This document shows, in pieces, positions 33,984 through 58,615 of a DNA stretch of 64,000 nt. Under the pieces are notes generated by a model that was not told the DNA's origin, made no database searches, and saw only the letters and a list, made by a program, of their open reading frames with translations. This DNA is from Bacteroidota bacterium (GTDB lineage Bacteria; Bacteroidota; Bacteroidia; Chitinophagales; Chitinophagaceae): positions 62,001 to 126,000 of the forward strand of contig VGFT01000002.1 of NCBI GenBank assembly GCA_016868775.1. Direction: 5' to 3'. Each line of letters starts with the position of its first letter. Position 1 is the first letter of the stretch. Both the position numbers and the translations under genes were made by a program.

Positions 33984-34340
33984 TTGGATGAGAAGATGAG
34001 AGGATGAGGAGATGAGGCTTCGGCGGGCGAGGGATGAGTGGATGAGCAGCCGTTTAGCGTTTAGGGAACAGGGTTTAGATCCTTAAGTAAACTCCTGCGT
34101 AAAATGACTCACCAGGGCCTAAACACTAATCGCTGTTCTCTAAACCCTCTTTTCTTATCCACAGTGATGTGGAAAACTACCAGCCCACCTCAAAGGGGTA
34201 TCGTTTCAGAGGTTACAATACCTTAACTTACAAGCAACGCAAAGGTTGTTGAATAAGATTATTTTGCGTTTCCAAGGCGAGCAAATATCTCTTAATAGCA
34301 ACAGCTAAAAATCCTAAGCCAAAATAATACCAACGTTTCT
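33984..34340. other. Repeat-rich intergenic spacer
   Basis: From 33986 to 34048 the DNA is a degenerate GATGAG/GGATGAG tract that includes CTTCGGCGGGCGAGGGATGA, also found nearly unchanged at 43203-43222. A GTTTAG inverted-repeat element follows (34052-34147). The remaining 190 bp up to 34340 are AT-rich with no clear gene; a promoter for the downstream fibronectin III gene is expected here but no good -7 box was found. Confidence 0.7.
34052..34147. repeat. GTTTAG inverted-repeat element, copy 1
   Basis: Left arm of GTTTAG units (34052-34078, GTTTAGCGTTTAGGGAACAG and on), a core starting ATCCTTAA, and a right arm (34119-34147) that is the imperfect reverse complement (CTAAACACTAATCGCTGTTC and on). 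It lies in the spacer downstream of the metalloprotease gene. Confidence 0.85.
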
Positions 34341-37300
34341 ATGCATTTTATCAAATTTAATTTGAAAGCTTTAAAAAGCTTTTTTGCAATCGCCATTGCC
34401 ATGCGAAAGGGGGCGAATGTGGGCGAATGTGGGGTGGGGCAAACAACTACCGCCATCCCGCGCAAAGGCATGCCTAAATTCCTTTCTCGCATCCTTAACC
34501 ACCCGGCTGTTCTGCCACACACCCTGGCGCTTTGTTTGGTATTGGTGCTGGGTGTGGGGAATGTTTGGGGGCAATACATTGTGGATTTTGAGGGTTCAGG
34601 TGAAACAAAAACTGCTTATGCATCTGGTAATGTTACACTTAATAGTATTCAATGGAATATGACAGATGCACTAATAGGTACAGGTTCTGATGATTATAAA
34701 AATGGACTTCGTTCTGCAAGATTTCGTGGTTACAGTTCATCATCGTTTACAATGAATGCCAATAAATCAAATGGTTTAGGTAGCATCTCATTTAAATATT
34801 GGAGATACGGTACTGATCCACAAGCAACTTGGAAAGTTGAATATTCAATTAACAATGGGTCTTCTTGGATACAAGCAGGTTCTAATTTTTCACCACCAGC
34901 GAATAACAACGAACAGACATTCTCTGCAACATCAATTAACGTTACTGAAGATGTACGTATCAGAATCGTTCATGTAAGTGGTGGTAATATAGGCACCCAG
35001 CGTAGGTTCAACATTGACGACATAACACTTACAAACTACGTAGCTCCTGCAGCGCCCACCATTACCAGCATTACTCCGGGCGATGCGCAGCTTTCCGTGG
35101 CGTTCACGGCGGGATCGGATGGCGGCTCGGCGATCACGAATTACCAGTATTCCACGGACGGTGGCACTAGTTGGAGGAACCGTGCTTCCGGCACAACAGC
35201 AAGTCCATTGGTAATTTCAACACTTTCAACTGATGGTACAACTGCTCTAACAAATGGAGTTTCTTACAATATTCAAATCCGAGCAGTAAATGCTGTCGGT
35301 GGTGGGACCGCAACTGCAAGTACAGCTGCAACACCGAGAACTACTCCGAGTGCTCCAACCATTACAGGAATTACACCGGGCAATCAACAATTGAGTGTTG
35401 CTTTTACTGCTCCTTCCTCTGACGGAGGTGCTGCAATTACAGATTACAAATACTCCACTGATGGTGGTGGTAGTTTTACTTCGGCCTCCTCTACAACCAG
35501 TCCAATTGTAATTACCGGGCTCACGAACGGGACTTCCTATAACGTGCAAATACGCGCCGTAAATGCTGCAGGTGACGGTACTGCTACTGCGAGCACAGCA
35601 GCAATACCTTTAGTAACTTTTTATTCCAAATCTTCCGGAGATATTAATAGTTTTAGTAGCTGGGGTGATAATACCAATGGCACAGGCGCTGAACCTACTG
35701 ATTTTACTTCAGCCGGTTCCGTTTATGAAATTCGAAATAGATCTTCAGCAACAATTGGAGCTAATTGGACTGTATCTGGTTCAAATTCAAAAGTTGTCGT
35801 TGGTGACGGAACCAATGCTGTCGACTTCTCCATTCCCGCTGGAATGAGCGTTAGTATCTCCGGAGACCTCACCAACCGCAGCACCATCAGCGGCGATGGT
35901 AAAGTGATCATGTCCGGCAGCAGCGCTCAAACCATTTCAGGTGCAGGTACTATTTCAAATCTGGAGATCAACAACAGCGCTGGCGTAACCATAAGCTCGG
36001 GCTCCAACATGCAAAGTCTTACAGGAGTACTGACACCGACAGCGGGCACCCTCACTACCAACGGCAACCTGACATTAAAGAGTACTGCCACCGGTACAGC
36101 CCGGGTGGCTACAGGTTCCTCTTCTGGAGGGTATGTGAGCGGCAATGTTTCCGTCGAACGCCACTTCGCCAGCAACAAGCAAGCCTGGCGTTTGGTAACA
36201 GCCCCGGTTGCAGGTTCAAGCAGCAATTTTATCTACGAACATTGGCAAAGTTCCACCACAGGCGGTGCCACCGGAGTGGAGATATGGGGGCCTACCGGTT
36301 CGGCAGCTCCCACTGGCTCAGGTGGTGCCAATGGGTTGGCTTATCATGCCACCGTTTCTTCTATGCGTGAATGGAATAATGACCCATCTAGCCCCGCCTA
36401 TGCCAATGTAACTGATACCAAAAGCACTCCATTATTTACAGCGGATGCTGCAAATCCTAAAAGTTACTTCCTTTTCGTGGCGGGGCCGCTTGGTAATGGT
36501 TCCGTTCCCGCTAGCTACTCTGCTGTAAAAGTCAGAGCAACAGGGGCGCTCCGTCAAGGAAATCAATCTTTTTCAATTACCAATGCCCAATCCGGCCGCT
36601 ATTTTATGGTTGGCAATCCGTACGCTTCCCCGGTTAGTCATGGCGAGGTTAATATGGTCAATGTTGACAATCCGGTTTGGCTTTGGGATCCCAATCTCAG
36701 CGGTGCCAATGGTGTGGGAGGATATGTATCTTTCGATCGCACTGCAAAAACATATAGTGTTCTATCCGGACAAAGTGGTACCGGTCTTGTATACACTGGA
36801 ACAAACACTTCGGACTACACCCGTCTGCAAAGCGGACAGGCCTTTTTCGTGCGTGCCACCAATACAGCCAATCTTTCAGTAAACTTTACAGAAGCTGATA
36901 AATCTTCTTCTAGCACGAACACGGTACTCCGCAGTGGTAGTAATTTTCAAGCCGAGAAAATGCGGTTGACTCTTCAGCGAAATTTTAATGGCGAACACAT
37001 TACCACCGATGGAGCCGTCGCATTCTTTTATGCCGGAGGGGCTACAGAAGTAAATGATATGGATGGACAAAAATTAATGAACGCCTCCAATAATATCATG
37101 TTCCGTCGAAACGGCACGAATCTAACCTTCGAACACCGTCCGCCGGTTGAATCCAACGACACACTTTTCTTGAATCTTCGCTCCACCAGTACCGGCGCCT
37201 ATCGGTTGATTCTCACGGGCTCTGATTTCGATAATAGCAACAAATTGATTCCGGTGCTGCAAGACACCTATCTAAATAAAGAGCAGATCCTGAAATTGGA

Positions 37301-37679
37301 TACATCGGTCAACTATGATTTCGAGATCGACGGTAATGCAACTGCCAGCAGCGGTGAGCGGTTCCGCATTGTATTCTCCTACAAAGCAACAGAACCGCTG
37401 GAATTCGGTCCAAGACATACGATACAGGGTTATCCCAATCCGTTGCGCGTAGGCGAACAATTGAATTTGAAATTCAACGATCGTCCGGCCGGTAATTACA
37501 CCGTGGTGTTTAACAGCCTGCAGGGTGCCCGTGTACAGCAACAATTTGTCCAGCACGCAGGCGGTACATCCGTCCAGAACATCAAGCTCAATTCTAAGCT
37601 AAGCCCGGGTAGCTATCTGGTAAATGTCCTGGATGCCTCGTCAAGAAATGTAGAATCCCTCAAAATCATCATACAGTAA
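34341..37679 (+). CDS. Large secreted protein with two fibronectin type III domains and T9SS tail
   Basis: 1112 residues if started at ATG 34341; ATG 34470 (MPKFLSRILNHP) gives a more normal signal peptide (LALCLVLVLGVGNVWGQ) and may be the true start. After the signal come a beta-rich carbohydrate-binding-like domain (IVDFEGSGETKTAYAS), two fibronectin III domains (PTITSITPGDAQLSVAF and PTITGITPGNQQLSVAF), a Ser/Thr/Gly-rich beta-solenoid-like region (GDGKVIMSGSSAQTISGAGT), a domain with HFASNKQAWRLVTAPV, and a C-terminal T9SS domain (YPNPLRVGEQLNLKFNDRPA, then SLKIIIQ). No enzyme motif is visible; adhesion or surface structure is likely. Base composition switches between AT-rich and GC-richer blocks across the gene. 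Confidence 0.88.
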   Translation: MHFIKFNLKALKSFFAIAIAMRKGANVGECGVGQTTTAIPRKGMPKFLSRILNHPAVLPHTLALCLVLVLGVGNVWGQYIVDFEGSGETKTAYASGNVTLNSIQWNMTDALIGTGSDDYKNGLRSARFRGYSSSSFTMNANKSNGLGSISFKYWRYGTDPQATWKVEYSINNGSSWIQAGSNFSPPANNNEQTFSATSINVTEDVRIRIVHVSGGNIGTQRRFNIDDITLTNYVAPAAPTITSITPGDAQLSVAFTAGSDGGSAITNYQYSTDGGTSWRNRASGTTASPLVISTLSTDGTTALTNGVSYNIQIRAVNAVGGGTATASTAATPRTTPSAPTITGITPGNQQLSVAFTAPSSDGGAAITDYKYSTDGGGSFTSASSTTSPIVITGLTNGTSYNVQIRAVNAAGDGTATASTAAIPLVTFYSKSSGDINSFSSWGDNTNGTGAEPTDFTSAGSVYEIRNRSSATIGANWTVSGSNSKVVVGDGTNAVDFSIPAGMSVSISGDLTNRSTISGDGKVIMSGSSAQTISGAGTISNLEINNSAGVTISSGSNMQSLTGVLTPTAGTLTTNGNLTLKSTATGTARVATGSSSGGYVSGNVSVERHFASNKQAWRLVTAPVAGSSSNFIYEHWQSSTTGGATGVEIWGPTGSAAPTGSGGANGLAYHATVSSMREWNNDPSSPAYANVTDTKSTPLFTADAANPKSYFLFVAGPLGNGSVPASYSAVKVRATGALRQGNQSFSITNAQSGRYFMVGNPYASPVSHGEVNMVNVDNPVWLWDPNLSGANGVGGYVSFDRTAKTYSVLSGQSGTGLVYTGTNTSDYTRLQSGQAFFVRATNTANLSVNFTEADKSSSSTNTVLRSGSNFQAEKMRLTLQRNFNGEHITTDGAVAFFYAGGATEVNDMDGQKLMNASNNIMFRRNGTNLTFEHRPPVESNDTLFLNLRSTSTGAYRLILTGSDFDNSNKLIPVLQDTYLNKEQILKLDTSVNYDFEIDGNATASSGERFRIVFSYKATEPLEFGPRHTIQGYPNPLRVGEQLNLKFNDRPAGNYTVVFNSLQGARVQQQFVQHAGGTSVQNIKLNSKLSPGSYLVNVLDASSRNVESLKIIIQ

Positions 37680-37705
37680 CCCTTCAAACGACTAAAACGA
37701 AATTT

Positions 37706-38047
37706 ATGAAAACAACTTTTTACAGAGGGACTGTATCGATCCTGCTGCTTACTGTGCTTCTGGCTACACCTGCTTCTGTTCAAGCCCAGATCGACGCAAG
37801 CAAGCTTATTGAACTTCCAACTGGTGGCTCCATCGATCTGCCCGGAGAGGGAGCACTGGATGGCTTGTCTGGGGACATTGAATATTTCGATGTGATCGGA
37901 GAAAGCACTGGCGAGGAGACCCCCTCTAACCCCGAAGACCCCGGTCCCGGCGTACCCGTCGACGGTGGCCTCGGTTTTTTATTGGCTGCCGGCCTGGGCT
38001 ATGGAGCCAAGCGATTGAGGAAGATGAGGATGAAGGATGAAGGATGA
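37706..38047 (+). CDS. Small secreted protein with PID-CTERM-like C-terminal sorting signal
   Basis: 113 residues. Signal peptide (ILLLTVLLATPASVQAQ), a short Gly/Pro/Glu-rich acidic middle, and a C-terminal tripartite signal: PVDGGLG, a hydrophobic helix (GFLLAAGLGYGA), and a basic end (KRLRKMRMK). This resembles PEP-CTERM-like sorting tails, specifically the P-x-D-GG form I know as PID-CTERM in Bacteroidota. The last codons are made of a GGATGAA microsatellite, so the extreme C-terminus may vary. It starts 26 bp after the fibronectin III gene and is probably co-transcribed with it. Function unknown. Confidence 0.75.
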   Translation: MKTTFYRGTVSILLLTVLLATPASVQAQIDASKLIELPTGGSIDLPGEGALDGLSGDIEYFDVIGESTGEETPSNPEDPGPGVPVDGGLGFLLAAGLGYGAKRLRKMRMKDEG

Positions 38048-38052
38048 AGAAA

Positions 38053-39763
<1,711 letters not shown>

Positions 39764-39767
39764 GATT

Positions 39768-39854
39768 GTTTAGGGAACAGGGTTTAGCGTTTAGATCCTT
39801 AACTTTAAATTATGCAGGATGTTGCACCAACAACTAAACACTAAACCCTAAACA
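39768..39854. repeat. GTTTAG inverted-repeat element, copy 3
   Basis: Begins four bases after the ABC-F stop codon. Left arm GTTTAGGGAACAGGGTTTAG, core ATCCTTAA then an AT-rich stretch with ATGCAGG, right arm CTAAACACTAAACCCTAAAC. Confidence 0.9.
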
Positions 39855-39884
39855 CAAAACATTTCATCATTTCCTTAAACCTGA

Positions 39885-41312
39885 ATGTTTCCAACAAACA
39901 AAATAAACCAACGTTCCGCAATCGCCTTGGTAATCGGAAGCGTAATCGGATCAGGGGTGTTCATGAAACCTGCGACGATGGCGGCGCAGTTGGGATCGCC
40001 TATTTTACTAACTGCCGTTTGGATCATTGCCGGATTGTTTTCTCTTTTTGGGGCGTTGGTGTATGCTGAGTTGGGGGCCATGATGCCGGAGAATGGAGGG
40101 ATCTATGTGTATTTTCGTCGACTGTTCGGACCCTTCCCAGCATTTCTATATGGATGGTCGGCTTTTTCCGTGATCAATACCGCTGCCATCGCAGCCATTG
40201 CCTTTGTCTGTGCCAAATACGCCGGATATTTTATTTCCCTGCCGGTATTGGAGGGCGAGCAACTCCGACTGGTCGATGGAGTGAAGGTTTTTCCCGAAAC
40301 GCGTTGCCATATTCCCTTTGTTGGCGATCTCTATCCCTTGCAAGACCTTGGGGTTAAGCTATTGGCGATCGTGCTGGTTCTGATATTGACCTTTTTGAAT
40401 GTGCGTAGTCTGAAGGCGGGCAATTATTTTCAAAATGTATCGACCCTGCTAAAGATCGTGGTGATTGGAGCCTTGGTGTTCGGTATTTTTTTATCGGGCA
40501 AAGGGGAGCTTGCTCATTTTATTTCTACGCCTGTTGAAGGAGAAGGGCGCTGGCTATCGGGTTTGGTGGCGGCGATGACCGGAGCGTTTTTTGCATATGA
40601 CGGATGGATCAATGTAAGTTCAATGGCCGGTGAGATCCGGGATCCGCAAAGAACCATCCCCCGAAGTCTATGGGTGGGTGTAATGGCTTGTGTGTTGATT
40701 TATGTGGCCGTAAACCAGGCGTACTTGTATGTGATGCCGGTGGATCAAATGGCGAAATCTACGCTTGTGGCTTCCGATGCCATCGGGGTGGCATTGGGAC
40801 AAACCTCTGAGGCCTTGGTAGCTGCCATGATAGTACTCTGTACGTTGGGGGCGATCAATGGAAACGTGATGGCAACGTCGAGGATCACCTATGCCATGGG
40901 GCGCGACCGGGTATTTGCTTCATCGATCGGACTCGATCATCCGAAATACGGCACCCAGGCCAATGCGCTATGGTTGCATGGTGTATGGACCTGTCTGTTC
41001 ATTCTCACCGGGTCCTTTGACATGCTGGCCGATATGTTTGTGTTTATTACCTGGATTGCTTATGGATTGGGTGCCCTGGGTATTTTTATGCTGCGAAAAA
41101 AAGAACCCGATGCGGCTCGTCCCTACCGGATCTGGGGCCATCCCTTCGTCACCCTGGCCTTCATTCTCTTTGCATTCACCTATCTGATCATTACGCTGTA
41201 TAGCGATGTCACCAATTACCTCGACGATAAACAACCCGTGATCAATTCGCTGTTGGGACTACTGATTACTTTTTTGGGCGTGCCGTTTTATTTTATTTGG
41301 CGGAGGCGATAA
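39885..41312 (+). CDS. Amino acid permease, APC superfamily
   Basis: 475 residues with about 12 hydrophobic helices. TM1 carries the unwound substrate loop typical of APC transporters (ALVIGSVIGSGVFMKPATMA). Later marks are LVYAELGAMMPENGGIYVYF, FAYDGWINVSSMAGEIRDPQ, and SRITYAMGRDRVFASSIGLD, which match the L-type amino acid transporter/SteT branch of amino acid exchangers. It sits in the inner membrane and imports or exchanges amino acids. It is flanked on both sides by GTTTAG elements. Confidence 0.9.
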   Translation: MFPTNKINQRSAIALVIGSVIGSGVFMKPATMAAQLGSPILLTAVWIIAGLFSLFGALVYAELGAMMPENGGIYVYFRRLFGPFPAFLYGWSAFSVINTAAIAAIAFVCAKYAGYFISLPVLEGEQLRLVDGVKVFPETRCHIPFVGDLYPLQDLGVKLLAIVLVLILTFLNVRSLKAGNYFQNVSTLLKIVVIGALVFGIFLSGKGELAHFISTPVEGEGRWLSGLVAAMTGAFFAYDGWINVSSMAGEIRDPQRTIPRSLWVGVMACVLIYVAVNQAYLYVMPVDQMAKSTLVASDAIGVALGQTSEALVAAMIVLCTLGAINGNVMATSRITYAMGRDRVFASSIGLDHPKYGTQANALWLHGVWTCLFILTGSFDMLADMFVFITWIAYGLGALGIFMLRKKEPDAARPYRIWGHPFVTLAFILFAFTYLIITLYSDVTNYLDDKQPVINSLLGLLITFLGVPFYFIWRRR

Positions 41313-41325
41313 TTTGGGTAGAAAC

Positions 41326-41412
41326 GTTTAGCGAGCAGCGTTTAGCTAATCAATCGTGATTCTATATAAAATGCTGCAGCAAGCGTTAAACCCTGTTCCC
41401 TAAACCCTAAAC
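41326..41412. repeat. GTTTAG inverted-repeat element, copy 4
   Basis: In the gap between convergent stops. Left arm GTTTAGCGAGCAGCGTTTAG, core with ATGCTGCAGC, right arm GCGTTAAACCCTGTTCCCTA and on. Confidence 0.9.
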
Positions 41413-41417
41413 ATACA

Positions 41418-41795: not shown

Positions 41796-41906
41796 AGGGG
41801 TAAAACTACGATTTTGTATGCCGAGAAGAAAAGTCTATAAAGTTGAGACGATGAGCAAAGCAATTAGGCAGTATGTTTCTTGAATCTGTACCTAAATTTA
41901 GAACCT

Positions 41907-41949
41907 GGTTGAACTGTGGTTGAACGATGGTTGAACCATTGTTCAACGG
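41907..41949. repeat. CAACCACTGTT-family repeat at the rocD 3' end
   Basis: Units GGTTGAACTGT, GGTTGAACGAT, GGTTGAACC then ATTGTTCAACGG, forming an inverted repeat. It lies 14 bases beyond the rocD stop codon. It is related to the 24940-25039 tract. Confidence 0.8.
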
Positions 41950-41963
41950 CTATTCTGTTAATC

Positions 41964-43360: not shown

Positions 43361-43517
43361 GTTTAGAGAGCCGGGTTTGAGATCAATGTTAGAGATCGAT
43401 GTTTAGAGAGCAGCGTTTAGGGTTTAGCTCCTTAATCGTATAATCGTAATAATTGATGCTGAAGGTTCTAAACACTAAACCCTGTTCGCTAAACGCTAAA
43501 CCCTGTTCCCTAAACCC
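43361..43517. repeat. GTTTAG inverted-repeat element, copy 5 (longest)
   Basis: Left arm spans 43361-43428 with several GTTTAGAG and GTTTAGGG units, core CTCCTTAATCG and on with ATTGATGCTG, right arm 43468-43517. The ispE stop codon TAG (43510-43512) lies inside the right arm. Confidence 0.9.
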
Positions 43518-44337
43518 GAAACATCATACAGCTTTCAAACTTCAATTGCCCCGGATCATCGGTAAAGATTCCGTACACGGTGCTGCCGCTGCCACTCATG
43601 CTGGCATACAGGGCTCCGGAGGCGATAAGTTTTTCCTTGACCTCTTTGATCTTTGGATAGTGGGGAAAGATCGAGGATTCAAAATCGTTGATTAGTTCTG
43701 TTTGCCAGGTTTCGATGGGTTGGGCAATGATCTGCCGGATCGGTTTGTGGTGTTCGTGAGGCGATACTCCGGCAAACGCTTCTTTGGTGGAGACATGAAT
43801 ACCGGGATTGATCAATGCGATCCAATATCCACGCAGTGAAACCGATATCGGCTCCAGGATTTCTCCGCGTCCGGCACCCAAGCAGGGTTCGTCGTAAATA
43901 AAAAACGGACAATCACTTCCGAGTTTTGCGGCATATTCAACGAGTTGGTCGGCGGTTAGTCCCAATTTAAATTTTTCATTCAATCCTCGTAACGCATACG
44001 CCCCATCGGCACTTCCCCCGCCCAGTCCCGCTCCGATGGGAATTATTTTATGCAAATGCATCTGCACCGTGGGCAGATCAGGAAAATCAGCCTTCAATAA
44101 ATGCCAGGCCTTGAGGCAAAGATTATCCTCGCTATTACCGGGCAACTCCAATCCCGTCACCTTTAGCTGCACACGCTCATCTCTCCTCCCCCGGGGGGAG
44201 GCTAAGAGGGGGCTTATTTCCAACAAATCCGTTAATCCAATAGGATAAAAAACCGTATCGAGGTCGTGGTATCCATCCGTTCGTTTTCGCAGAATGCGCA
44301 ACCCAAGGTTGATCTTGGCGGGTGGAAAAAGGATCAT
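43510..44337 (-). CDS. ispE: 4-diphosphocytidyl-2-C-methyl-D-erythritol kinase
   Basis: 275 residues. GHMP kinase marks: PPAKINLGLRILRKRTDGYH at the start, the ATP loop IPIGAGLGGGSADGAYALRG, and the C-terminal GALYASMSGSGSTVYGIF. It is the ATP-dependent step of the MEP isoprenoid pathway. Two oddities: residues about 42-53 (SPLLASPRGRRDE) are encoded by a palindromic GC-rich repeat that is usually intergenic, and the stop codon TAG comes from a GTTTAG element. It starts six bases after the bifunctional nuclease gene, so the two are co-transcribed. Confidence 0.94.
   Translation of the reverse strand: MILFPPAKINLGLRILRKRTDGYHDLDTVFYPIGLTDLLEISPLLASPRGRRDERVQLKVTGLELPGNSEDNLCLKAWHLLKADFPDLPTVQMHLHKIIPIGAGLGGGSADGAYALRGLNEKFKLGLTADQLVEYAAKLGSDCPFFIYDEPCLGAGRGEILEPISVSLRGYWIALINPGIHVSTKEAFAGVSPHEHHKPIRQIIAQPIETWQTELINDFESSIFPHYPKIKEVKEKLIASGALYASMSGSGSTVYGIFTDDPGQLKFESCMMFRV
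44183..44214. repeat. GC-rich palindromic repeat inserted in ispE
   Basis: CTCCTCCCCCGGGGGGAGGC followed by TAAGAGGGGGCT. It is translated in frame as an extra segment of about ten residues near the IspE N-terminal domain. Confidence 0.7.
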
Positions 44338-46017: not shown

Positions 46018-46100
46018 GTTTAGAAAGCAGAGTTTAGGGTTTAGCAACGAATTCAAATCATGTTCCAATATCATAGTACTCTAAACCCTAAACCTTAAAC
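46018..46100. repeat. GTTTAG inverted-repeat element, copy 6 (within the etfB-etfA gap)
   Basis: Left arm GTTTAGAAAGCAGAGTTTAG and on, AT-rich core, right arm CTCTAAACCCTAAACCTTAA. The etfB stop codon TAA (46095-46097) lies in the right arm. Confidence 0.85.
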
Positions 46101-49714: not shown

Positions 49715-49722
49715 AGGAATGT

Positions 49723-49746
49723 AGTTAGTTTGGGTAGTTTGGGAAA
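49723..49746. repeat. CCCAAACTA-family repeat upstream of rlmH
   Basis: AGTTAGTTTGGGTAGTTTGG, the reverse complement of the CCCAAACTA unit. It lies in a 277-bp gap in which I see no convincing gene. Confidence 0.7.
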
Positions 49747-50333: not shown

Positions 50334-50348
50334 CTACCCCTTAGGGAT

Positions 50349-50422: not shown

Positions 50423-50424
50423 CA

Positions 50425-50455: not shown

Positions 50456-50467
50456 GTGCGTTGATTC

Positions 50468-51217
50468 TTATCGACGCTGCAATTTCGTGAGAAGGCGTAG
50501 GATCTCGAGATAGAGCCAGACCAGTGTTACCAGCAGGCCAAAGGCACTATACCACTCCATAAATTTGGGAGCTTGCATCTCGGCTCCTTTCTCGATCATG
50601 TCAAAATTCAACAGAAGGTTCAGGGAGGCCAGGACCACCACAAAAACAGAGAACCCAATTCCAAACGCGCTGGAATCCATGGTGCCACCGGCTATCGTCG
50701 AACCAAAAAACTGTGCGCCGATCCATTGAACCAAGTAAAAGATTGCAACGGCCATGGTGGCTACCACAATGATTTGGCGGAATCGTTGGGTGACGGGTAT
50801 GATCCTAAAGCGATAGATCAGAAACATAAGTCCGGCTACCAACAAGGTCAGAAACACTGCCTGCATAGGTAAGCCCGGATATCGGTCATTCAGGTATGCA
50901 CTGAATGCTCCCAAAAACAGGCCTTCCAAAACCGCGTAGCCGGGTGCCAATACGGGCGACCACGACATTTTAAACATCATGATCAGGGCCATGATCAGTC
51001 CGCCAAAAACACCCACCATCATGAAGGTGGACGGATCGGATCCTTTTTGAAATTGGTCCCACGCAAAAAATGTGGATGCAGCCATCAACGCCATCAGAAC
51101 ACCGAATTTGTTCAGGGTGCCGTTGAGCGTCATGGAGTCGCCGGCGTATTCACCGGAGATCGACCGCTCAAAGGTTTTTTCTTTGAGCGTAGGGTTGCTG
51201 GAGTCAAAGATTGCCAT
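50468..51217 (-). CDS. Bax inhibitor-1/YccA family membrane protein
   Basis: 249 residues with seven hydrophobic spans. N-terminal soluble start MAIFDSSNPTLKEKTFERS, then TLNGTLNKFGVLMALMAAST, GVFGGLIMALIMMFKMSWSP, APGYAVLEGLFLGAFSAYLN, and VVVLASLNLLLNFDMIEKGA. The last matches the C-terminal di-aspartyl-type region of the BI-1 superfamily (pH-sensitive calcium leak). It stands alone and converges with the tRNA terminator. Confidence 0.9.
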   Translation of the reverse strand: MAIFDSSNPTLKEKTFERSISGEYAGDSMTLNGTLNKFGVLMALMAASTFFAWDQFQKGSDPSTFMMVGVFGGLIMALIMMFKMSWSPVLAPGYAVLEGLFLGAFSAYLNDRYPGLPMQAVFLTLLVAGLMFLIYRFRIIPVTQRFRQIIVVATMAVAIFYLVQWIGAQFFGSTIAGGTMDSSAFGIGFSVFVVVLASLNLLLNFDMIEKGAEMQAPKFMEWYSAFGLLVTLVWLYLEILRLLTKLQRR

Positions 51218-51251
51218 GGTGTATTGTTTGAGCAGTTAAGATACCAAAAAG

Positions 51252-53171
51252 TCAGAACTTCCAACGCACAAAGGCTTCCATTGCGGCATAGTGTGTTAGA
51301 CCCAGGTCGGCATAAAGCTTAGCCGTATGGGCATTTCTTTCTTCGGCCCGTTGCCAAAATTCCCGTGCGTCGGTGCCTTGGAAGGGGACCAAGTCTTTTT
51401 GGGATTGGTGGATAAAGATGCCGTGTCGTTTGCGAAGGACTTGGTCCGGGCTCATCGGGATGGCCATTTCGATCTCGTCTATGTTCCATTCTTCCCACGC
51501 GCCTTTGTAGAGCCATAGCCAGCAGTCGCCAATCCAATCATCTCCTTCTGCTTTTATTTGCTTGAGCGCTTCCAGTACGGCTTGGAAACAAACAATGTGT
51601 GTGCCATGGGGGTCAGCAAAATCTCCGGCGCAATAAACTTGATGGGGACGGATCTTCCGCAACAGTTCTTTGGTGGCCAGGATATCTTTTTTGCCCAATG
51701 GTTTTTTTTCGATGGCGCCGGTTTCATAGAAGGGGAGGTCCATGAAATGAATGTTCGCTTCCGGGATCCCCACAAATCGACAGGTGGCTTTCGCCTCGCC
51801 CCGACGGATCAGTCCCTTGATGGATCGAATAAGTTTTGTGTCGGTTTGGTTCGACTTTTTCTTATCAAGAAATCGGCGAGAGGCATGAAGGATCTCTCTT
51901 GATTTTTTATTGTTGATGCCTGCAATCGATTCAAACCTTACGGCAAAATCCAGGTAGCGGGTCACGAATTCATCCGTTACTGCGATGTTGCCACTGGTTT
52001 GGTAGGCAACGTGCACGTCATGCTCCTGGTTGTGCAGACGTTGAAACGCCCCCCCCATGCTGATGATGTCATCGTCCGGGTGCGGCGAGAAGAGGAGCAC
52101 CCGTTTGGGATAAGGTTCGGAACGCTCAGGGTGTCCGGGCAAGATCGCGTTGGGCTTTCCGCCCGGCCAGCCCGTGATCGAATCTCTCAGCAGGTAATAT
52201 ACTTGCAGGTTCACCTCGTAGGCCTCTTCTTTTTCGACGAGCAGGTCGCCCAATCCATTTTCATTGTAATCGCTGTTGGTGAGACTCAGCACCGGTTTGT
52301 TTAGGGCGAGCGCCAGGTTCACCACTGCTTTTTTCATCATCTGCGGTGTCCACTCGCAATCGCCGGTAAGCCAAGGAGATTTGAAGCGGGTGAGTTCTGT
52401 TGCAGCGGCCTCATCGCATATAAAAGTGACATCGTCGTGGTTTTGCAGCAGGGAAGCGGGCACGTGCTCCGAGTCATCTTCCTCTACGGCTTTTTTGATG
52501 ACGGGGGCTTTTGCACTGCCCCAGGCCATTAATAAGATCCGCTTGGCTTTGAGAATCGTATCGATTCCCATGGTAATGGCCAGCCGCGGCACCTGCGAAA
52601 TGTTCGAAAACTCATATGCATTTGCCAACCGTGTGGAATGATCCAGGTTGACCAGTCGTGTCTTGCTGTAAATACCCGACCCCGGCTCATTGAATCCGAT
52701 GTGGCCGTTCATTCCCATCCCCAGAACCTGCAAGTCGATGCCCCCTGCTGCCTGGATTTTTTTCTCGTATTCCCGACAAAATGCTTTCACCTCATCCTTG
52801 GCGATGTTCCCCGGGGGGATGTGGATATTACTGGGTTTGATGTCGAGGTGATCGAAAAGATGGCTGTGCATGAACCGATGATAGCTTTGAAGGGCTGTCG
52901 GTTCTAAGGGATAATATTCATCCAGGTTGAAGGTGATGACATTCTTAAAACTGAGTTTCTCTTCGTGATGAAGGCGCACCAACTCGGCATAAAGTGATTT
53001 GGGAGTGGAGCCCGTGGCAAGTCCCAGTACCACTGTTTTTTTCTCTTTTTGTCTCTGACGAATCAGGTCCGCAATCTGACGGGCTACCCAAAGGGAACCA
53101 TCGGATTGGTCAGCAACGATTTTTACTGGGATTCTCTCTAAACTGTCGGTCAACTTGGCACTCTCAGGCAT
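51252..53171 (-). CDS. nagB: Glucosamine-6-phosphate deaminase fused to an LmbE-like deacetylase domain
   Basis: 639 residues in two parts. Residues about 10-270 are NagB: VVLGLATGSTPKSLYAELVR, VITFNLDEYYPLEPTALQSY, VLGMGMNGHIGFNEPGSGIY and LLMAWGSAKAPVIKKAVEED. Residues about 345-639 are an LmbE/PIG-L fold with VLLFSPHPDDDIISMGGAFQ near the start and a later HGTHIVCFQAV. NagB turns GlcN-6-P into fructose-6-P and ammonia. The second domain could deacetylate GlcNAc-6-P, as NagA does, though HPDDD-type enzymes here often have other substrates. This fusion is common in Bacteroidota. The neighbouring GH20 enzyme supports a GlcNAc-use role. A -7 box is at 53191-53198. Confidence 0.93.
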   Translation of the reverse strand: MPESAKLTDSLERIPVKIVADQSDGSLWVARQIADLIRQRQKEKKTVVLGLATGSTPKSLYAELVRLHHEEKLSFKNVITFNLDEYYPLEPTALQSYHRFMHSHLFDHLDIKPSNIHIPPGNIAKDEVKAFCREYEKKIQAAGGIDLQVLGMGMNGHIGFNEPGSGIYSKTRLVNLDHSTRLANAYEFSNISQVPRLAITMGIDTILKAKRILLMAWGSAKAPVIKKAVEEDDSEHVPASLLQNHDDVTFICDEAAATELTRFKSPWLTGDCEWTPQMMKKAVVNLALALNKPVLSLTNSDYNENGLGDLLVEKEEAYEVNLQVYYLLRDSITGWPGGKPNAILPGHPERSEPYPKRVLLFSPHPDDDIISMGGAFQRLHNQEHDVHVAYQTSGNIAVTDEFVTRYLDFAVRFESIAGINNKKSREILHASRRFLDKKKSNQTDTKLIRSIKGLIRRGEAKATCRFVGIPEANIHFMDLPFYETGAIEKKPLGKKDILATKELLRKIRPHQVYCAGDFADPHGTHIVCFQAVLEALKQIKAEGDDWIGDCWLWLYKGAWEEWNIDEIEMAIPMSPDQVLRKRHGIFIHQSQKDLVPFQGTDAREFWQRAEERNAHTAKLYADLGLTHYAAMEAFVRWKF

Positions 53172-53190
53172 CCTGAATTAAGTTGAGCCA

Positions 53191-53198
53191 CAAATATA
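53191..53198 (-). promoter_or_regulatory. -7 promoter element for the nagB fusion gene
   Basis: TATATTTG on minus strand, 19 bases before the nagB ATG. Confidence 0.6.
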
Positions 53199-53257
53199 CC
53201 AAACTACTCAAACTATTCAAACTACCCAAACTACCTAAACTGTCCAAACTATTCTAC
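53199..53257. repeat. CCCAAACTA-family tandem repeat between nagB and GH20 genes
   Basis: Six units of period 9 (CCAAACTACT, CAAACTATT, CAAACTACC and so on). The GH20 stop codon TAG (53249-53251) lies inside it; read on the minus strand, one frame has TAG in nearly every unit. Confidence 0.9.
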
Positions 53258-55714
53258 CTCTATCTCATCCACAAACAACCACGCCTTATTTCCGGCACCG
53301 GCATTTCGAGCAGGGATGACACCTGCATTCTTGATGCTCACACGCAGATAACGTGCGTTCGTAGAAGAAAATCGGAGGATCAGTTTGTCGATGCGTTTCC
53401 GTTCATCGGTGGTGCTTTCTGGTGCCACCTCAATGGCTCGAAAGTCGGTTCCGTTATCACTGATCTCCAAGTTTATGCCGCTGGGTGGATGGATCCAGCT
53501 GGCTTTTTGTTCGAACGTATGAATCGTTGTTTTTTGAATTGACTGCAAACTGCCCAGATCGATGGTGGCTATACAATCGGTGCCGCTGAAGCCCAGAAAT
53601 TCCCGGCTGCGGGCCATTCCTTTTTCGTTCTGTATGCCGTTGACCAGTGTAAAGGCTCCGTCCCCATTATACTGTTTGGCCGGTGGGACAGTAAGGGTAA
53701 TATTTTTGCCGGTGGCTTTGTTAAAATGGAAGGTCTCTCGCACAACCATATTCAATCCGCCCACGTAGGACGAGGCGGAGGCCCGGGTATTGAAGGTGAT
53801 GGGCTGCGGACCTTTATAGGGCCAGATGGTATCCCAGTTGTTGTAATTGATGTAGATCGGTTCGGTGGATTTGCTTTCCAATTTCCAAAGCACCCCATTT
53901 TGATCGGGTGCGGGAATGATGGTGGAGCGAAGATCAAACAGGCCGGGACAATAATCGATGTTCATGGCCTCATAGCGTTTCAGTTGCGGCATCAGTCGTT
54001 TTTCAAAGAAGTTCCAATCCTGATAACGCTTCGGCGTCCAGAGAATTTCACTGAGTGCGGCGATCCGGGGAAAGATCATGTACTCGATCTTTTTGGGATT
54101 GGACATGTATTCGGTCCACACATTGGCTTGCGCCCCCAGAATAAATTTTTGTTGGTCAGCGGTCAGTTCTTTTGACAGGGGGTCGTAGGCATATACTTTT
54201 TCAATTGGATTAAAACCACCAATGAAAACAGAGTCTTCGTTCTCGCGTTGCCCGTTGTCGAAATAAAGCGGACTGCCCGGGGTCATGATCACATTGTGTT
54301 TTTGCTTGGCTGCTTCAATGCCTCCATGTTCTCCCCGCCAGCTCATGACAACGGCATTGGGAGCGAGTCCGCCTTCCAGGATCTCATCCCAACCGATCAT
54401 GATCTTACCCTTGCTGTTCAGGTATTTTTCGATGCGCTGAACAAAATAACTCTGTAATTCATGTTCGTCCCTCAGTTGGAATTCGACCCGACGTTGCTGG
54501 CAACGCGGACATTTCTTCCAATGGGTTTTGGGACACTCATCGCCACCAATGTGAAAATAGGTGGAAGGGAATAGCGCGATGACTTCATCGATCACGTCTT
54601 GCAGAAAAACAAATGTTGAGTCGTTTCCCGCGCAAAGCACGTCGTCGAACACACCCCAGGTTTCCTGTACGATCTTGATACGACCATTTTTCATCTCCTC
54701 GCGGCTTCTTTCGGAAAGCGGACTCTCCGGTAAGGGCGTTGGCAATTTAGGGAAGCAGCTGAGTTGGGGGTATGCTGCAATGGCCGCACTGCTATGACCC
54801 GGCATCTCGATCTCGGGGATCACTTCAATATAACGGGCGCCGGCATATTTTACCACTTCCTTGATCTCCTCCTGCGTGTAGAACCCTCCATAGTACTGGT
54901 TTGTGTTCGATGTACCTGGGTATCTTCCAACAATCGTGCCGTTTCGCCAGGCACCCACGCGGGTGAGTTCCGGATATTTTTTTATTTCGATCCGCCAGCC
55001 CTGATCCTCCGTCAAGTGCCAATGGAAGGTGTTGATCTTGTGGTAGGCCAGCCAATCGATGTATTGTTTGATGAAGGCCACGGGAAAGAAATGTCGACCT
55101 ACATCCAGGTGCATGCCCCGGTAGGCAAAACGAGGCTTATCGCCAATGCCCACGAACGGGAACTGATACGTATTATTGGCTTTTTTTTCCACCAGTTGCA
55201 ACAACGTTTGAATGCCGTTGAAAACCAATTGTGGACTATTGCCTTGCAATTGTATGCCTTGTGCATTCACCAGCAGCCGATAAAAATAATCGCCCGGGGT
55301 GTTGGGTTGGGGACCAATCAACCCCACCACTACGTTGGTGGCCGGCTCCGTTGCATTCGCTAATTGAACGCCATATTGCTGACGCAACTGTTGCAGGAGG
55401 TAAGGAATGATGAAGCTGCTATCGGCTTTTGGTAAAGAAATCTGCAGCCGTATTTTTTTGGGCATGGCCAACTTACCCTCTTGTACATAAACCTGACTGG
55501 GATAGGGGATGAGGTTCAACGCAGGGAGATCTTTCACTGGTATGGTGTCTGTGTAATTGTTGCCTACGCCATTGAGCTGATACGGATTTTGGGGATTTTC
55601 GGAGAAACTTACAGGGCCCTTATCGTTCTTACCTGCCAGTGGCGGTTTAGAACCATTTTGTGCAAAAAGAGTGGATGCGGTCAGGCAGAGGAGAAAGGGA
55701 AGTATTGATTTCAT
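53249..55714 (-). CDS. Secreted beta-N-acetylhexosaminidase, glycoside hydrolase family 20
   Basis: 821 residues. Signal peptide (ILPFLLCLTASTLFAQNG), an N-terminal GH20b-type domain, then the catalytic barrel: RGMHLDVGRHFFPVAFIKQY, FHWHLTEDQGWRIEIKKYPE, YIEVIPEIEMPGHSSAAIAA, and the catalytic Asp-Glu pair in YFHIGGDECPKTHWKKC near residue 390. IMIGWDEILEGGLAPNAVVM and AQANVWTEYMSNPKKIEYMI also fit. About 220 C-terminal residues form beta-sandwich domains (a chitobiase-like or F5/8-like domain). It releases terminal GlcNAc or GalNAc from chitin oligomers or glycans. The nagB fusion gene lies 78 bp downstream. Confidence 0.95.
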   Translation of the reverse strand: MKSILPFLLCLTASTLFAQNGSKPPLAGKNDKGPVSFSENPQNPYQLNGVGNNYTDTIPVKDLPALNLIPYPSQVYVQEGKLAMPKKIRLQISLPKADSSFIIPYLLQQLRQQYGVQLANATEPATNVVVGLIGPQPNTPGDYFYRLLVNAQGIQLQGNSPQLVFNGIQTLLQLVEKKANNTYQFPFVGIGDKPRFAYRGMHLDVGRHFFPVAFIKQYIDWLAYHKINTFHWHLTEDQGWRIEIKKYPELTRVGAWRNGTIVGRYPGTSNTNQYYGGFYTQEEIKEVVKYAGARYIEVIPEIEMPGHSSAAIAAYPQLSCFPKLPTPLPESPLSERSREEMKNGRIKIVQETWGVFDDVLCAGNDSTFVFLQDVIDEVIALFPSTYFHIGGDECPKTHWKKCPRCQQRRVEFQLRDEHELQSYFVQRIEKYLNSKGKIMIGWDEILEGGLAPNAVVMSWRGEHGGIEAAKQKHNVIMTPGSPLYFDNGQRENEDSVFIGGFNPIEKVYAYDPLSKELTADQQKFILGAQANVWTEYMSNPKKIEYMIFPRIAALSEILWTPKRYQDWNFFEKRLMPQLKRYEAMNIDYCPGLFDLRSTIIPAPDQNGVLWKLESKSTEPIYINYNNWDTIWPYKGPQPITFNTRASASSYVGGLNMVVRETFHFNKATGKNITLTVPPAKQYNGDGAFTLVNGIQNEKGMARSREFLGFSGTDCIATIDLGSLQSIQKTTIHTFEQKASWIHPPSGINLEISDNGTDFRAIEVAPESTTDERKRIDKLILRFSSTNARYLRVSIKNAGVIPARNAGAGNKAWLFVDEIEVE

Positions 55715-55761
55715 TCCAACATGTTTGGAACGCTAAATGTACGATTAATCTCTATCGGCTG

Positions 55762-56637
55762 TCAATCGTCGAGCAGGCCGAATTTCCCGGTGTTGAAATC
55801 CTGTATAGCCTGCTCGATTTCGCTCCAATGATTCATCAAAAAGGGGCCATAGGCGGCAATGGGTTCATCGAGGGGCTCGCCCGATAAGACTAAGATCACT
55901 ACGTCGGTTGAAGCTACTACCGAAACGGACTCTCCGTCGTGTTGAAACAACACAAAATGATCCGGAGAAATCGAGGTGCCGTTCAGTTCGGCAGCGCCTT
56001 GAATCATCAGAAATGCCGTGTTGTAATGCGCCGGAAGATCCAATTCTAAGGTTGCGCCCGCCCGCAATTTCAAATTGTACATTTCGATGGGTGTGAACGT
56101 GCGGGCAGGACCACGAGTGCCCCTGAAATTTCCAGCAATTATTTCCACAACCCCATTTTGATCCGGAAGTAGATGCTTGCCCATCAGTTGATGGGTGATC
56201 TCTTGGTAAGCGGGCGGATCCATTTTGTGTTTGGCCGGCAGATTTACCCAAATCTGCACCATTTGAAAAAGCCCACCGCTTCTGCTAAAACTTTCCTCAT
56301 GATACTCCTTATGAAGCAACCCCGAAGCAGCCGTCATCCATTGCACGTCTCCTTCCCCAATTACTCCGTGGTGTCCGGCCGAATCGTGGTGTGCGATCCG
56401 TCCTTTGTAGGCGATGGTCACCGTTTCAAACCCTCGATGCGGATGAACCCCCACGCCCCGCGGCGTATCGGTCGGCGGAAACTCCACTTTCGAGCCATAA
56501 TCCAACAAGAAAAAAGGACTCATTCGCTGCTTTCCCAACCGGCCATCACCCGGTAAAAAGGAATGTACGCGAAACCCATCTCCCACCATATGGGGCGGCG
56601 GGGGAGCTAATACCTTTTCAATCGTTTTAATAGCCAT
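55762..56637 (-). CDS. Pirin family bicupin protein
   Basis: 291 residues. Pirin N-terminal cupin: FLLDYGSKVEFPPTDTPRGV, GVHPHRGFETVTIAYKGRIA, HHDSAGHHGVIGEGDVQWMT, AASGLLHKEYHEE, which supply the metal-binding His/Glu residues. The C-terminal pirin domain (FTPIEMYNLKLRAGATLELD, LVLSGEPLDEPIAAYGPFLM) follows. Family members include quercetin dioxygenases and redox sensors; the substrate here is unknown. Confidence 0.92.
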   Translation of the reverse strand: MAIKTIEKVLAPPPPHMVGDGFRVHSFLPGDGRLGKQRMSPFFLLDYGSKVEFPPTDTPRGVGVHPHRGFETVTIAYKGRIAHHDSAGHHGVIGEGDVQWMTAASGLLHKEYHEESFSRSGGLFQMVQIWVNLPAKHKMDPPAYQEITHQLMGKHLLPDQNGVVEIIAGNFRGTRGPARTFTPIEMYNLKLRAGATLELDLPAHYNTAFLMIQGAAELNGTSISPDHFVLFQHDGESVSVVASTDVVILVLSGEPLDEPIAAYGPFLMNHWSEIEQAIQDFNTGKFGLLDD

Positions 56638-56743
56638 ACAGGAGATAAATGTAGATAATAATGTTTAAACATCAAAATAGTTCTACAACCAAATGCGCCA
56701 TCAATCAAATTTGTTAATGTACTTTCGGATACAATATTTTAAC

Positions 56744-57775
56744 ATGTTGAACAGGAGAAAGTTTATCTCGGGATCGGCACTGGGTTCCGTTGGGTTGTTG
56801 CTTGGCAAAGAGGTGCATTCGGCTTCTATCCAGGGTGCGCCCGACAGCCCTATAGTGGTTTCTACCTGGGATGTGGGATTGGATGCCAACCGGGCTGCCT
56901 GGGAGGTGTTAAGCAGAGGCGGAATCGCGTTGGATGCGGTGGAGCAGGGTGTACGGATAACGGAAGATTCCTTGAACTGTTGTGTGGGGCTGGGGGGCAA
57001 TCCGGATCGCGATGGATTTGTAACGCTCGATGCCTGCATCATGGATGCGCATGGAAACTGTGGCAGTGTGGCCTTTTTGGAGCGCATCAAACATCCGATC
57101 TCTGTGGCCAGAAGGGTTATGGAAAAAACCCCGCATGTAATGCTGGTTGGGATAGGCGCACAGCAATTCGCCTTGGAAGAGGGATTCAAACTCGAGTCAG
57201 GTACCTTGTCAGAGGATGCGCAACGCGCGTATGAACAATGGCTTGAGAAATCGAATTACAGACCCCCCGAAAAAAATATTGAGAATAAAAAGCAGCACGG
57301 TCCCTTTGCCCCCACACGGTTAGCCAATGGCGATTGGAATCATGATACCATTGGAATGTTGGCATTGGATCAGCAGAGAAACCTGAGCGGTAGTTGTACC
57401 ACCAGTGGCGCGGGATTTAAAATGCGGGGACGCGTGGGTGATTCCCCGCTGATCGGTTCGGGTTTGTATGTCGACAATGAAGTGGGTGCTTGTACTGCCA
57501 CCGGCCAAGGGGAGGAGATCATCCGCATCGCCGGTGCTCACCTGGTAGTAGAATTTATGCGCAGCGGATTGACACCGGAACAATCCTGCAAAAAAGCGAT
57601 CGAACGCTTTGTTAAGCTGCGAACGAATAAGCTGGCCGAGTTACAAGTTTGTTTTTTGGCGATCGATCGTGCTGGAAATTTCGGGGGGTACTCCCTTCGC
57701 CCGGGTTTCACCTATGCGGTACGTTCGCGTCACGAAGAAAAAATTTATAAATCAACCAGCTGGTTCGATTCATGA
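56744..57775 (+). CDS. Glycosylasparaginase / isoaspartyl peptidase family Ntn-hydrolase, exported
   Basis: 343 residues from ATG 56744. The N-terminus NRRKFISGSALGSVGLLLG looks like a Tat-type signal (RRKF). Family marks: PIVVSTWDVGLDANRAAWEV, GGIALDAVEQGVRITEDSLN, VGLGGNPDRDGFVTLDACIM, HGNCGSVAFLERIKHPISVA, and the autoprocessing site NHDTIGMLALDQQRNLSGSC, where the Thr becomes the new N-terminal nucleophile. It most resembles N4-(beta-N-acetylglucosaminyl)-L-asparaginases, which cut GlcNAc from Asn of N-glycans; that suits the nearby GH20 and nagB genes. Confidence 0.9.
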   Translation: MLNRRKFISGSALGSVGLLLGKEVHSASIQGAPDSPIVVSTWDVGLDANRAAWEVLSRGGIALDAVEQGVRITEDSLNCCVGLGGNPDRDGFVTLDACIMDAHGNCGSVAFLERIKHPISVARRVMEKTPHVMLVGIGAQQFALEEGFKLESGTLSEDAQRAYEQWLEKSNYRPPEKNIENKKQHGPFAPTRLANGDWNHDTIGMLALDQQRNLSGSCTTSGAGFKMRGRVGDSPLIGSGLYVDNEVGACTATGQGEEIIRIAGAHLVVEFMRSGLTPEQSCKKAIERFVKLRTNKLAELQVCFLAIDRAGNFGGYSLRPGFTYAVRSRHEEKIYKSTSWFDS

Positions 57776-57776
57776 G

Positions 57777-58508
57777 ATGATGACCGATCCCCATATTATA
57801 CTTGAGATCGCCACCGCCGATTTAGAAACGACCCGTCAGGCCATTGCCGGTGGGGCTGACCGCATCGAGCTTTGCGCCAATTTGGGAGAAGGCGGCACCA
57901 CGCCGGCTTATGGTACGATGCGCATCTGCCGAGAACGTTTCTCGGTGCCAATTTTTCCAATCATTCGTCCCCGTGCCGGCGACTTCCTATACACCGATGA
58001 TGAATTTCGGACCATGCAGTTGGAAGTGGAACTGGCTCGCTCAATGGGATTTGAAGGCGTGGTCATCGGTTTGTTGTTGTCCGATGGACAAATCGATCTC
58101 CACCGAACCGCCCGGCTGCGCGAACTTGCCTACCCGATGGAGTGCACCTTTCACCGGGCCTTCGATCGGTGTCTGGATCCCAACCAAGCACTGGAGGATT
58201 TGATAAATATTGGAGTGAACCGGATCCTGACCTCCGGACAGCATTTGACAGCCCCGGAAGGCGTGTCCTGCATCGCTCAACTTCAGCAACAAGCCAACGA
58301 ACGGATTATCATTATGCCGGGCAGCGGTGTACGCCCCGAGAACATTCAAGCCCTGCGTGCGAAAACAGGCTGTATAGAATTTCATACCTCCTTGCGCGTC
58401 TGGAAAGAAAGCCAAATGCAATTCCGGCATCCAAATTTTTCAGGTGCGCAGGAGTCTTACCTGAATCCAGATATTAATGAGGCAGAAGTGAGGAAGATGA
58501 AGGAATGA
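57777..58508 (+). CDS. cutC: CutC family protein
   Basis: 243 residues from ATG 57777 (an ATG-ATG pair). TIM-barrel CutC pattern: LEIATADLETTRQAIAGGAD, RIELCANLGEGGTTPAYGTM, IFPIIRPRAGDFLYTDDEFR, GFEGVVIGLLLSDGQIDLHR, CTFHRAFDRCLDPNQALEDL and INIGVNRILTSGQHLTAPEG. It was once called a copper homeostasis protein, but that role is disputed and an enzymatic role is likely. It starts one base after the preceding gene's stop. It is followed by a GTTTAG element. Confidence 0.92.
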   Translation: MMTDPHIILEIATADLETTRQAIAGGADRIELCANLGEGGTTPAYGTMRICRERFSVPIFPIIRPRAGDFLYTDDEFRTMQLEVELARSMGFEGVVIGLLLSDGQIDLHRTARLRELAYPMECTFHRAFDRCLDPNQALEDLINIGVNRILTSGQHLTAPEGVSCIAQLQQQANERIIIMPGSGVRPENIQALRAKTGCIEFHTSLRVWKESQMQFRHPNFSGAQESYLNPDINEAEVRKMKE

Positions 58509-58519
58509 ATGAATGTTTG

Positions 58520-58615
58520 TTTAGTAAATAGGGTTTAGCGTTTAGGTATTCTTGTATCATTTGTTACAATTGTATCGTTTAGGAGCTAAACACTAAACGC
58601 TGTTCCCTAAACCCT
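58520..58615. repeat. GTTTAG inverted-repeat element, copy 7
   Basis: Between convergent stops. Left arm GTTTAGTAAATAGGGTTTAG and on, AT-rich core, right arm CTAAACACTAAACGCTGTTC and on. The right end is three bases from the convergent gene's stop codon. Confidence 0.9.

Follow-up and report, generated by a model that had tools for sequence, protein, structure and literature searches.

We have studied a family of inverted-repeat elements at the 3′ ends of genes in a member of the Chitinophagaceae (Bacteroidota bacterium, GenBank assembly GCA_016868775.1). The window analyzed is a stretch of 64,000 nt, positions 62,001 to 126,000 of contig VGFT01000002.1 (C2), and is part of a genome of 2.03 Mb in ten contigs, which we term G000. 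Each element comprises two arrays of the seven-nucleotide word GTTTAGN and its variants, placed in inverted orientation about a core in the spacer that follows a gene. When such spacers are compared with their orthologs in a related species, the array sites seem, as judged from the sequences, to have been kept between species while their spelling has been rewritten. We tentatively interpret the arrays as persistent 3′-end stem-loops whose words are homogenized genome-wide, a reading that we prefer without regarding it as probable.

Anatomy and placement of the GTTTAG elements

A preliminary description of the window had reported seven inverted copies of a GTTTAG element with a period of about seven. 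All seven could be read directly in the window sequence at the places given, with the correction that positions 43361–43400 of the fifth are a degraded outer part. We employed a statistic that is blind to the words, scoring two parallel reverse-complement diagonals offset by one period against dinucleotide shuffles. This returned a period of 7 at six of the seven elements, with z = 4.4–6.7, values that none of 30 shuffles reached; the copy at 46018 was missed because the open reading frame (ORF) caller had over-extended a start. The pattern GTTTAGNGTTTAGNG has 46 matches in the genome (18 forward and 28 reverse, overlaps counted), and its reversed control has none. The genome-wide model search that the preliminary description had proposed was run with a sequence model made from 22 copies. 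It gave 89 matches over both strands, corresponding to 35 near-full-length places and about ten partial ones. The 35 places were counted by hand, and with 150 of 440 first-look candidates scored the number is a lower bound.

In a typical copy each of the two inverted arms is made of about four words, GTTTAGN or GNACAGN. One variable base separates the words, and GAACAG and GAGCAG words mostly occupy the inner slots. The core is most often 38 nt long. The cores at loci L006 and L342 are identical at 33 of 38 positions, and those at L119 and L120 are likewise copies. In a comparison of 39 cores, from 41 elements entered and with the window element at 38053 left out, 16 of 741 pairs lay above the 99.9% point of the shuffles in direct orientation, and 8 in inverted orientation. 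The motif TCCTTAA, reported earlier as shared between cores, is indeed present in those at 34052, 39768 and 43401, and also in L121 elsewhere in the genome. At one site orthologous between G000 and its relative G007 (L006:1368-1448 and L351:1561-1645) the 38-nt core has opposite orientations in the two genomes with respect to the genes on either side, which is what recombination between the inverted arms would produce.

The copies are clustered. All seven that the model found on the 391-kb contig C2 lie within 25 kb, inside the window; none of the 35 falls in 20 other 20-kb stretches of G000, and all six G000 matches to a stricter form of the statistic are in the window.

The position of the elements with respect to genes was examined using ORFs called by a greedy longest-ORF script rather than a gene finder, so that some orientations and starts are wrong. 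With these calls, 22 of the 35 full G000 copies are in co-directional spacers, 13 in convergent and none in divergent spacers, in agreement with the 3′-end location first proposed. This count covers full copies, to the exclusion of a two-word site (G000:C8:14630), single arms and the ten partial places. Divergent spacers make up 49 of the 178 in our G000 sample, and the chance of finding none among 35 is about 1e-5 by simple multiplication, if the copies are independent. The seven G007 copies examined, from about 21 matched places there, also avoid divergent spacers. A comb statistic used at first gave arrays in 35 of 239 co-directional, 19 of 72 convergent and 1 of 91 divergent spacers, and was replaced because it also caught ordinary terminators.

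The arrays begin close to the stop codon. Thirty-one of the 35 full copies lie within 16 nt of one, as do 31 of the 38 stop distances measured for 28 copies. Ten of these distances are negative (−6 in seven cases, −13 in one and −20 in two), i.e., the array word itself supplies the stop codon of the ORF. For co-directional arrays of all genomes the median distance is 5 nt. We considered whether a period not divisible by three serves to provide stop codons in all frames, and dropped the idea because words such as GTTACC contain no stop.

The elements have a marked potential to form hairpins. For 28 copies the mean folding z was −4.0 on both strands, and 25 of the 28 fell below −2, compared with 2 of 56 control windows. 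A run of four or more T follows just 6 of 70 arm ends, which bears out the earlier remark that there is no T-run, and the elements thus lack the stem and following T-run of an intrinsic (Rho-independent) terminator. No element matched an Rfam family; at gathering scores the window gives only a tRNA.

The same sites spelled with other words

We compared 83 spacers of G000 with their orthologs in a second species, G014, the median protein identity being 84%. Arrays were present on both sides in 12 spacers, in G000 only in 2, in G014 only in 7 and in neither in 62 (p = 3.9e-8). With a stricter threshold the corresponding numbers were 7, 6, 8 and 62 (p = 0.0015). Some of the G000 spacers had been picked for holding arrays; the G014 loci were taken by window synteny (L150), by word matches (L157, L079 and L086) or, for the rest, by contig position. 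Shuffles exceeded the array threshold in 2 of 83 and 1 of 83 spacers. Thus 12 of the 14 G000-positive spacers are occupied in G014 too, and in several of the one-sided spacers a sub-threshold array can be seen by eye in the other species.

The period agrees in 9 of the 12 shared spacers (six 7-7 and three 9-9). The words do not: GTTTAG in G000 stands opposite GATGAG, GGTGAA or GTAGAA in G014. The clearest example is L120 compared with L309, where the flanks up to the stop and before the next start are nearly identical, and the words are GTTTAGN in the one and GATGAAN or GGTGAAN in the other. A comparison with G007, which has the same dialect as G000 and 89% median identity of matched proteins, revealed at least four shared sites (L001, L006, L010 and L011) among loci chosen mostly for holding elements.

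The words themselves vary between lineages. The GTTTAG model has 41 matches in G007 (both strands), 8 weaker ones in G014 and 3 in G027, and none in G022, G019, G016 or G003; as 150 candidates were scored per genome, the counts are lower bounds. Three consecutive GATGANN words are found 38 times in G014, and their one occurrence in G000 adjoins a GTTTAG arm. The pattern GTTACCNGTTACC has 292 matches in Niastella vici and 134 in N. caeni; in none of 12 other genomes does it exceed 5. The reversed GTTACC control has 168 and 41 matches in the two Niastella species, which we attribute to a second word there, GGTCAAT. Reversed control patterns gave matches in some other genomes of the word searches too.

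Within G014 there are two period-7 dialects. Word chains were found in 37 spacers, and both arms could be typed in 21; in 20 of these 21 elements the two arms share a dialect, where shuffles average 12.9 (P = 0.00035). Arms that mix words are found in 2 of 63 cases in G000, 2 of 26 in G007 and 17 of 69 in G014. In the mixed arms of G014, GTTTA lies inner to GATGA-type words in three and outer in five, and inner to GTAGAA in seven of eight. Replacement of words from the inside out is hinted at by a few arrays, and was rejected as a general rule given this inconsistent order.

Arrays of this architecture were sought more widely, in relatives of G000. A search with one window protein gave 39 named loci, mostly from Chitinophagaceae or other Chitinophagales. 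By the stricter statistic, inverted arrays are present in 86 of 1,024 spacers sampled from G000 and its relatives. They occupy 23 of the 176 convergent spacers, 53 of the 598 co-directional ones and 10 of the 250 divergent ones, where shuffles gave 0.4, 3.2 and 3.4. The contrast between spacers with a 3′ end and divergent ones has p = 0.0036. The period is 7 in 52 of the 86 and 8 in 18. The G-rich strand points inward in 62 arrays and outward in 18, the other 6 being ties (p = 8e-7 when these are set aside). Single 20-kb stretches from each of nine relatives (G026, G016, G025, G003 and five order-level genomes) yielded no array. The same architecture, with other words and mostly of period 7, is therefore present in many of the Chitinophagales sampled, and not in all. 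The broader proposition, that in many Chitinophagales the position, period and mirror layout of 3′-spacer arrays are inherited while each lineage rewrites the spelling, is possible, and at present rather doubtful. Paired arrays with periods of 8–10, of the CACAGATTAACACAGATT and CACTAAGACACAAAGGC types, were also seen at L278, L280 (G022), L167 and L168; these are presumably of kinds that occur in several other phyla as well.

Elements and sister families in the window

Element 1 (34052–34148) has a left arm of GTTTAG and GAACAG words, a 40-nt core beginning ATCCTTAA and a right arm, with RNA z = −2.3/−3.5; a canonical intrinsic terminator lies upstream on the plus strand (33951–33983). Element 2 (38053–38160; z = −6.2/−6.5) extends from 5 nt past a stop to 4 nt ahead of the next start, and its arms surround a canonical terminator hairpin followed by TTACGTTTTT (38079–38110, plus strand). 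Word arms around canonical terminators also occur at L172:2123-2557 and L226:17901-18062. Three GATGAAG words on the plus strand (38029–38047, G000:C2:100029-100047) adjoin the left arm of element 2. They spell a word of the relative G014, and are the sole match of GATGANNGATGANNGATGA in G000.

Element 3 (39768–39853; z = −3.0/−5.0) starts 4 nt past the stop of an ABC-F-like gene, and the orthologous spacer of G014 carries a GATGAGN array. Element 4 (41326–41412; z = −4.8/−1.8) is placed between convergent genes with stops 13 and 5 nt away; its G014 ortholog carries GTAGAAN words. Element 5 (43361–43522) consists of a clean pair at 43401–43522 preceded by the degraded outer part, and a word of its right arm gives the stop codon of a GHMP-kinase gene. 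The right arm of element 6 (46018–46100) overlaps the stop of a gene with an electron-transfer flavoprotein domain; CTCATC and TTCATC words occupy the corresponding G014 spacer. Element 7 (58519–58615; z = −3.9/−3.6) fills the spacer between convergent ORFs ending at 58508 and 58619. The ORF caller scored this spacer as co-directional, yet the ORF listing puts 58519 between convergent genes. The eight flanking proteins tested are ordinary, and include an ABC-F-like ATPase, an amino-acid permease, a class-III aminotransferase, a GHMP kinase, an electron-transfer flavoprotein and two proteins with secretion tails.

This genome has further word families besides GTTTAG. A period-9 family, AGTTTGGNN, has 89 pattern matches in G000 (control 1), and a period-11 family, GTTGAACNNNN, has 10 (control 0). 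In the window the period-11 family is represented by array pairs at 41902–41949 (GTTGAACNNNN) and 24927–25044 (GTTGAAC/GTTCAAC). Integron attC sites were considered for GTTGAAC and dropped, as orientation and context differ. Period-9 arrays on the minus strand are found at 13134–13178 (AGTTTGGNN, inside a called ORF), at 13798–13830 between divergent ORFs, and at 53197–53251, adjoining the stop (53249) of a minus-strand ORF. A short one on the plus strand is at 49726–49743, and TGAAGAGTTTGAAGAGTT forms a further period-9 array (61772–61826) in the spacer between co-directional minus-strand ORFs. A period-9 pair some 720 bp apart at L046 was examined as a possible gene-bearing transposon, and rejected; small ORFs lie between.

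Explanations, precedents and implications

In the interpretation that we prefer, two short-word arrays, with a period of 7 in the GTTTAG family and of 9 or 11 in the sister families, are inverted about a core of ~38 nt. Since the first array lies at or within a few nucleotides of the stop codon, the RNA would fold back just past the stop, whichever the direction of transcription. The fold would most probably help to end the mRNA or to protect its 3′ end, in both directions where genes converge. The sites would be old and kept. The words would be spread and homogenized by copying between loci, giving each species a dialect of its own; a few cores point to copying of entire elements, and the arms may have undergone gene conversion. 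What the sequences show is the anatomy, the location of the GTTTAG family at 3′ ends, the capacity to form hairpins, the retention of sites with replacement of their words and the lack of three families of mobilizing enzymes; the role in RNA and the mechanism of copying are what we infer.

Several observations weigh against this interpretation. Single-arm arrays that do not fold exist (L052 and L060). The compensatory changes that had been proposed as a check on the arms do not appear within G000. RNAalifold reports no pair, opposite slots hold the same word type in 50 of 74 cases where 51.9 are expected, and two-sided changes were found in 10 cells compared with 14.4 in shuffles. Of 27 parsed elements 2 were dropped as odd, and the slot test used 21 of the other 25, with cores of 30–48 nt. 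The bases at the junctions between words are complementary less often than expected, in 11 of 58 cases compared with 20.5 (P = 0.0002), and in a smaller G000 set in 8 of 52 compared with 15.8 (P = 0.003); those of G007 show no departure (6 of 17, 7.0 expected). Placed beside the agreement in dialect between the arms in G014, these counts indicate that the arms agree on the word, yet G000 keeps mismatches between the words.

Placement is also less clear outside the GTTTAG family. Word chains in G014 occupy 11 of 45 spacers between convergent genes, 20 of 171 between co-directional genes and 6 of 56 between divergent ones, so that by these crude ORF calls they are enriched in convergent spacers, and are not depleted in divergent compared with co-directional ones. 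For 48 period-9 arrays, the feature on the 5′ side is a stop in 26 and a start in 14, and 7 are inside called ORFs. Where there is a same-strand stop on the 5′ side of these AGTTTGG arrays, 15 of 26 start between −2 and +3 nt from it. The period-9 arrays are thus tied less strictly to 3′ ends than the GTTTAG family. Lastly, by raw count, canonical terminators are present in 11 of 54 array spacers compared with 152 of 468 others.

The absence of arm covariation, the species-specific words, the fixed size and core length, the shared cores and the lack of divergent copies (0 of 35) would all be expected of selfish repeats resembling a miniature inverted-repeat transposable element (MITE). An enzyme acting in trans would copy an element of ~92 bp with the word arrays as its ends, and survivors would be found mainly in 3′ spacers because insertion elsewhere is harmful. 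Such an origin does not readily explain how two species with 84% median protein identity occupy the same sites with different words, with both flanks retained at L120 and L309. The enzymes sought are missing too. Y1_Tnp (PF01797), present in 26 of the 48 genomes searched, has no match in G000, G014 or G007, and RVT_1 and DDE_Tnp_1 are likewise absent from these three, other transposase families not having been searched. We regard this origin as rather unlikely.

Repetitive extragenic palindromic (REP) sequences and bacterial interspersed mosaic elements (BIMEs) are dispersed, palindromic and extragenic, and are associated with Y1 transposases of the RAYT (REP-associated tyrosine transposase) type. 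In contrast, the stem of the present arrays is made of tandem words, the word is replaced between species and there is no Y1 transposase. The original suggestion was right in that these are dispersed, REP- or MITE-like elements of 3′ ends and not ordinary terminators, and its link to TnpA-REP is not supported; RAYT was rejected as a current driver on the same absence. Templating by a telomerase-like reverse transcriptase, at which the telomere-like word and the inward polarity hinted, was rejected because RVT_1 is absent from G000, G014 and G007.

An unlikely alternative is that the arrays bind a protein whose specificity drifts, so that the word changes genome-wide at fixed sites; binding by IHF/HU has been proposed for the paired 7- and 8-mer arrays of Geobacter metallireducens. 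The words are conserved while the junction bases vary, the arms match the genome-wide word rather than each other, and the switch at kept sites would be what such a reader produces. However, a common reader alone does not require that the two arms of an element share a dialect, as 20 of 21 do in G014. No gene for a reader was identified, and the spacing varies (7, 9 and 11).

It is improbable that the arrays arose neutrally, by slippage and template switching at hairpins that built inverted repeats in situ in unconstrained spacers. Heptamer repeats are over-represented in many bacterial genomes, according to a study of Xanthomonas, where they are described as lacking detailed study (Rehm et al., 2015, PMC4692102), and chains are not less frequent in the divergent spacers of G014 than in its co-directional ones. 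Yet a process acting locus by locus would not be expected to place the same word at tens of loci in one genome and few in its relatives, and the sharing of words between loci, far beyond common spacer ancestry, already strains this explanation. Moreover, template switching predicts identical arms, and the G000 junctions are less identical than chance. Spread by biased DNA uptake is highly improbable: dialects, inverted pairs at gene ends and a Competence (ComEC) domain in G000, G014 and G007 are as expected, but the sites number only in the tens per genome and form tandem arrays, and the ComEC-like match of G000 (G000:C1:162198-162944) has two in-frame TAA codons, where those of G014 and G007 have none.

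The architecture itself has already been described in Xanthomonas and Geobacter, and a heptamer stem with replacement of classes in a Nostoc intron. GGGAATC heptamer arrays of Xanthomonas form 70 and 75 convergent two-array cases in two genomes, and most of those downstream of ORFs are coding-strand arrays at 0–50 bp from the stop, overlap with the stop included (Rehm et al., 2015). They resemble the present arrays in their tandem heptamers, paired convergent layout and proximity to stops. They differ in the word and in having been studied as G-quadruplex formers, respelling at orthologous sites not being among the results reported there; the Chitinophagales arrays, by contrast, include several word families with periods of 7, 8, 9 and 11. 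The ‘global regulator binding sites’ of Geobacter metallireducens (classes 1–3) comprise four tandem octamers GTTGCTYN or five heptamers MTYCTGA (Aklujkar et al., 2009, PMC2700814). They are mostly pairs on opposite strands, and in that account none was identified in G. sulfurreducens. The likeness is in the tandem 7- and 8-mers paired on opposite strands; the words are other, and the sites are proposed to bind IHF/HU, with no tie to stop codons stated in the account of them. The present arrays share with this general kind of paired array tandem words of 7–8 nt, close arrays on opposite strands with the G-rich strand inward and a coding-strand array 0–50 nt past the stop. They do not share the word, which is here GTTTAGN, AGTTTGGNN or GTTGAACNNNN.

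The P6b stem of the trnL intron in Nostoc is built of heptamers, TDNGATT or NNTGAGT, of which one class is described as having repeatedly replaced the other with a similar fold (Kaasalainen et al., 2015, PMC4476775); this is a single site in a group I intron and not a set of dispersed 3′ spacers. The DNA uptake sequences of Neisseriaceae have species dialects and occur as inverted pairs at terminators (PMC3630211). As described there they are single words or inverted pairs rather than tandem arrays in 7-nt phase, and are common within genes too. TAACTGA arrays are intergenic heptamers, some of them in Bacteroidetes (MacGregor, 2015, PMC4679880), but in that report they are direct repeats, and in the main species studied most of them closely precede start codons. 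The open-access literature that we searched gave no description of the present kind of array in Chitinophagales, and no account of site persistence with respelling, of a start at the stop codon in Chitinophagales or of anti-complementary junctions.

Because orthologous sites can be followed while the word changes, site, period and spelling become separable, and the questions of what maintains the site and what alters its word become testable. The arrays are a candidate route to some mRNA 3′ ends in the Chitinophagales. If position, period and mirror layout are indeed inherited while each lineage rewrites the spelling, some activity not yet described would have to read or copy a short word at sites scattered over the chromosome, either a word-reader that drifts or a template-directed homogenization that needs neither a reverse transcriptase nor the transposases sought, and the mismatch retained roughly once per seven bases would be a trait under selection that avoids perfect palindromes. 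One kind of process may underlie the paired arrays of Xanthomonas and Geobacter, the stem of the Nostoc intron and the arrays described here.

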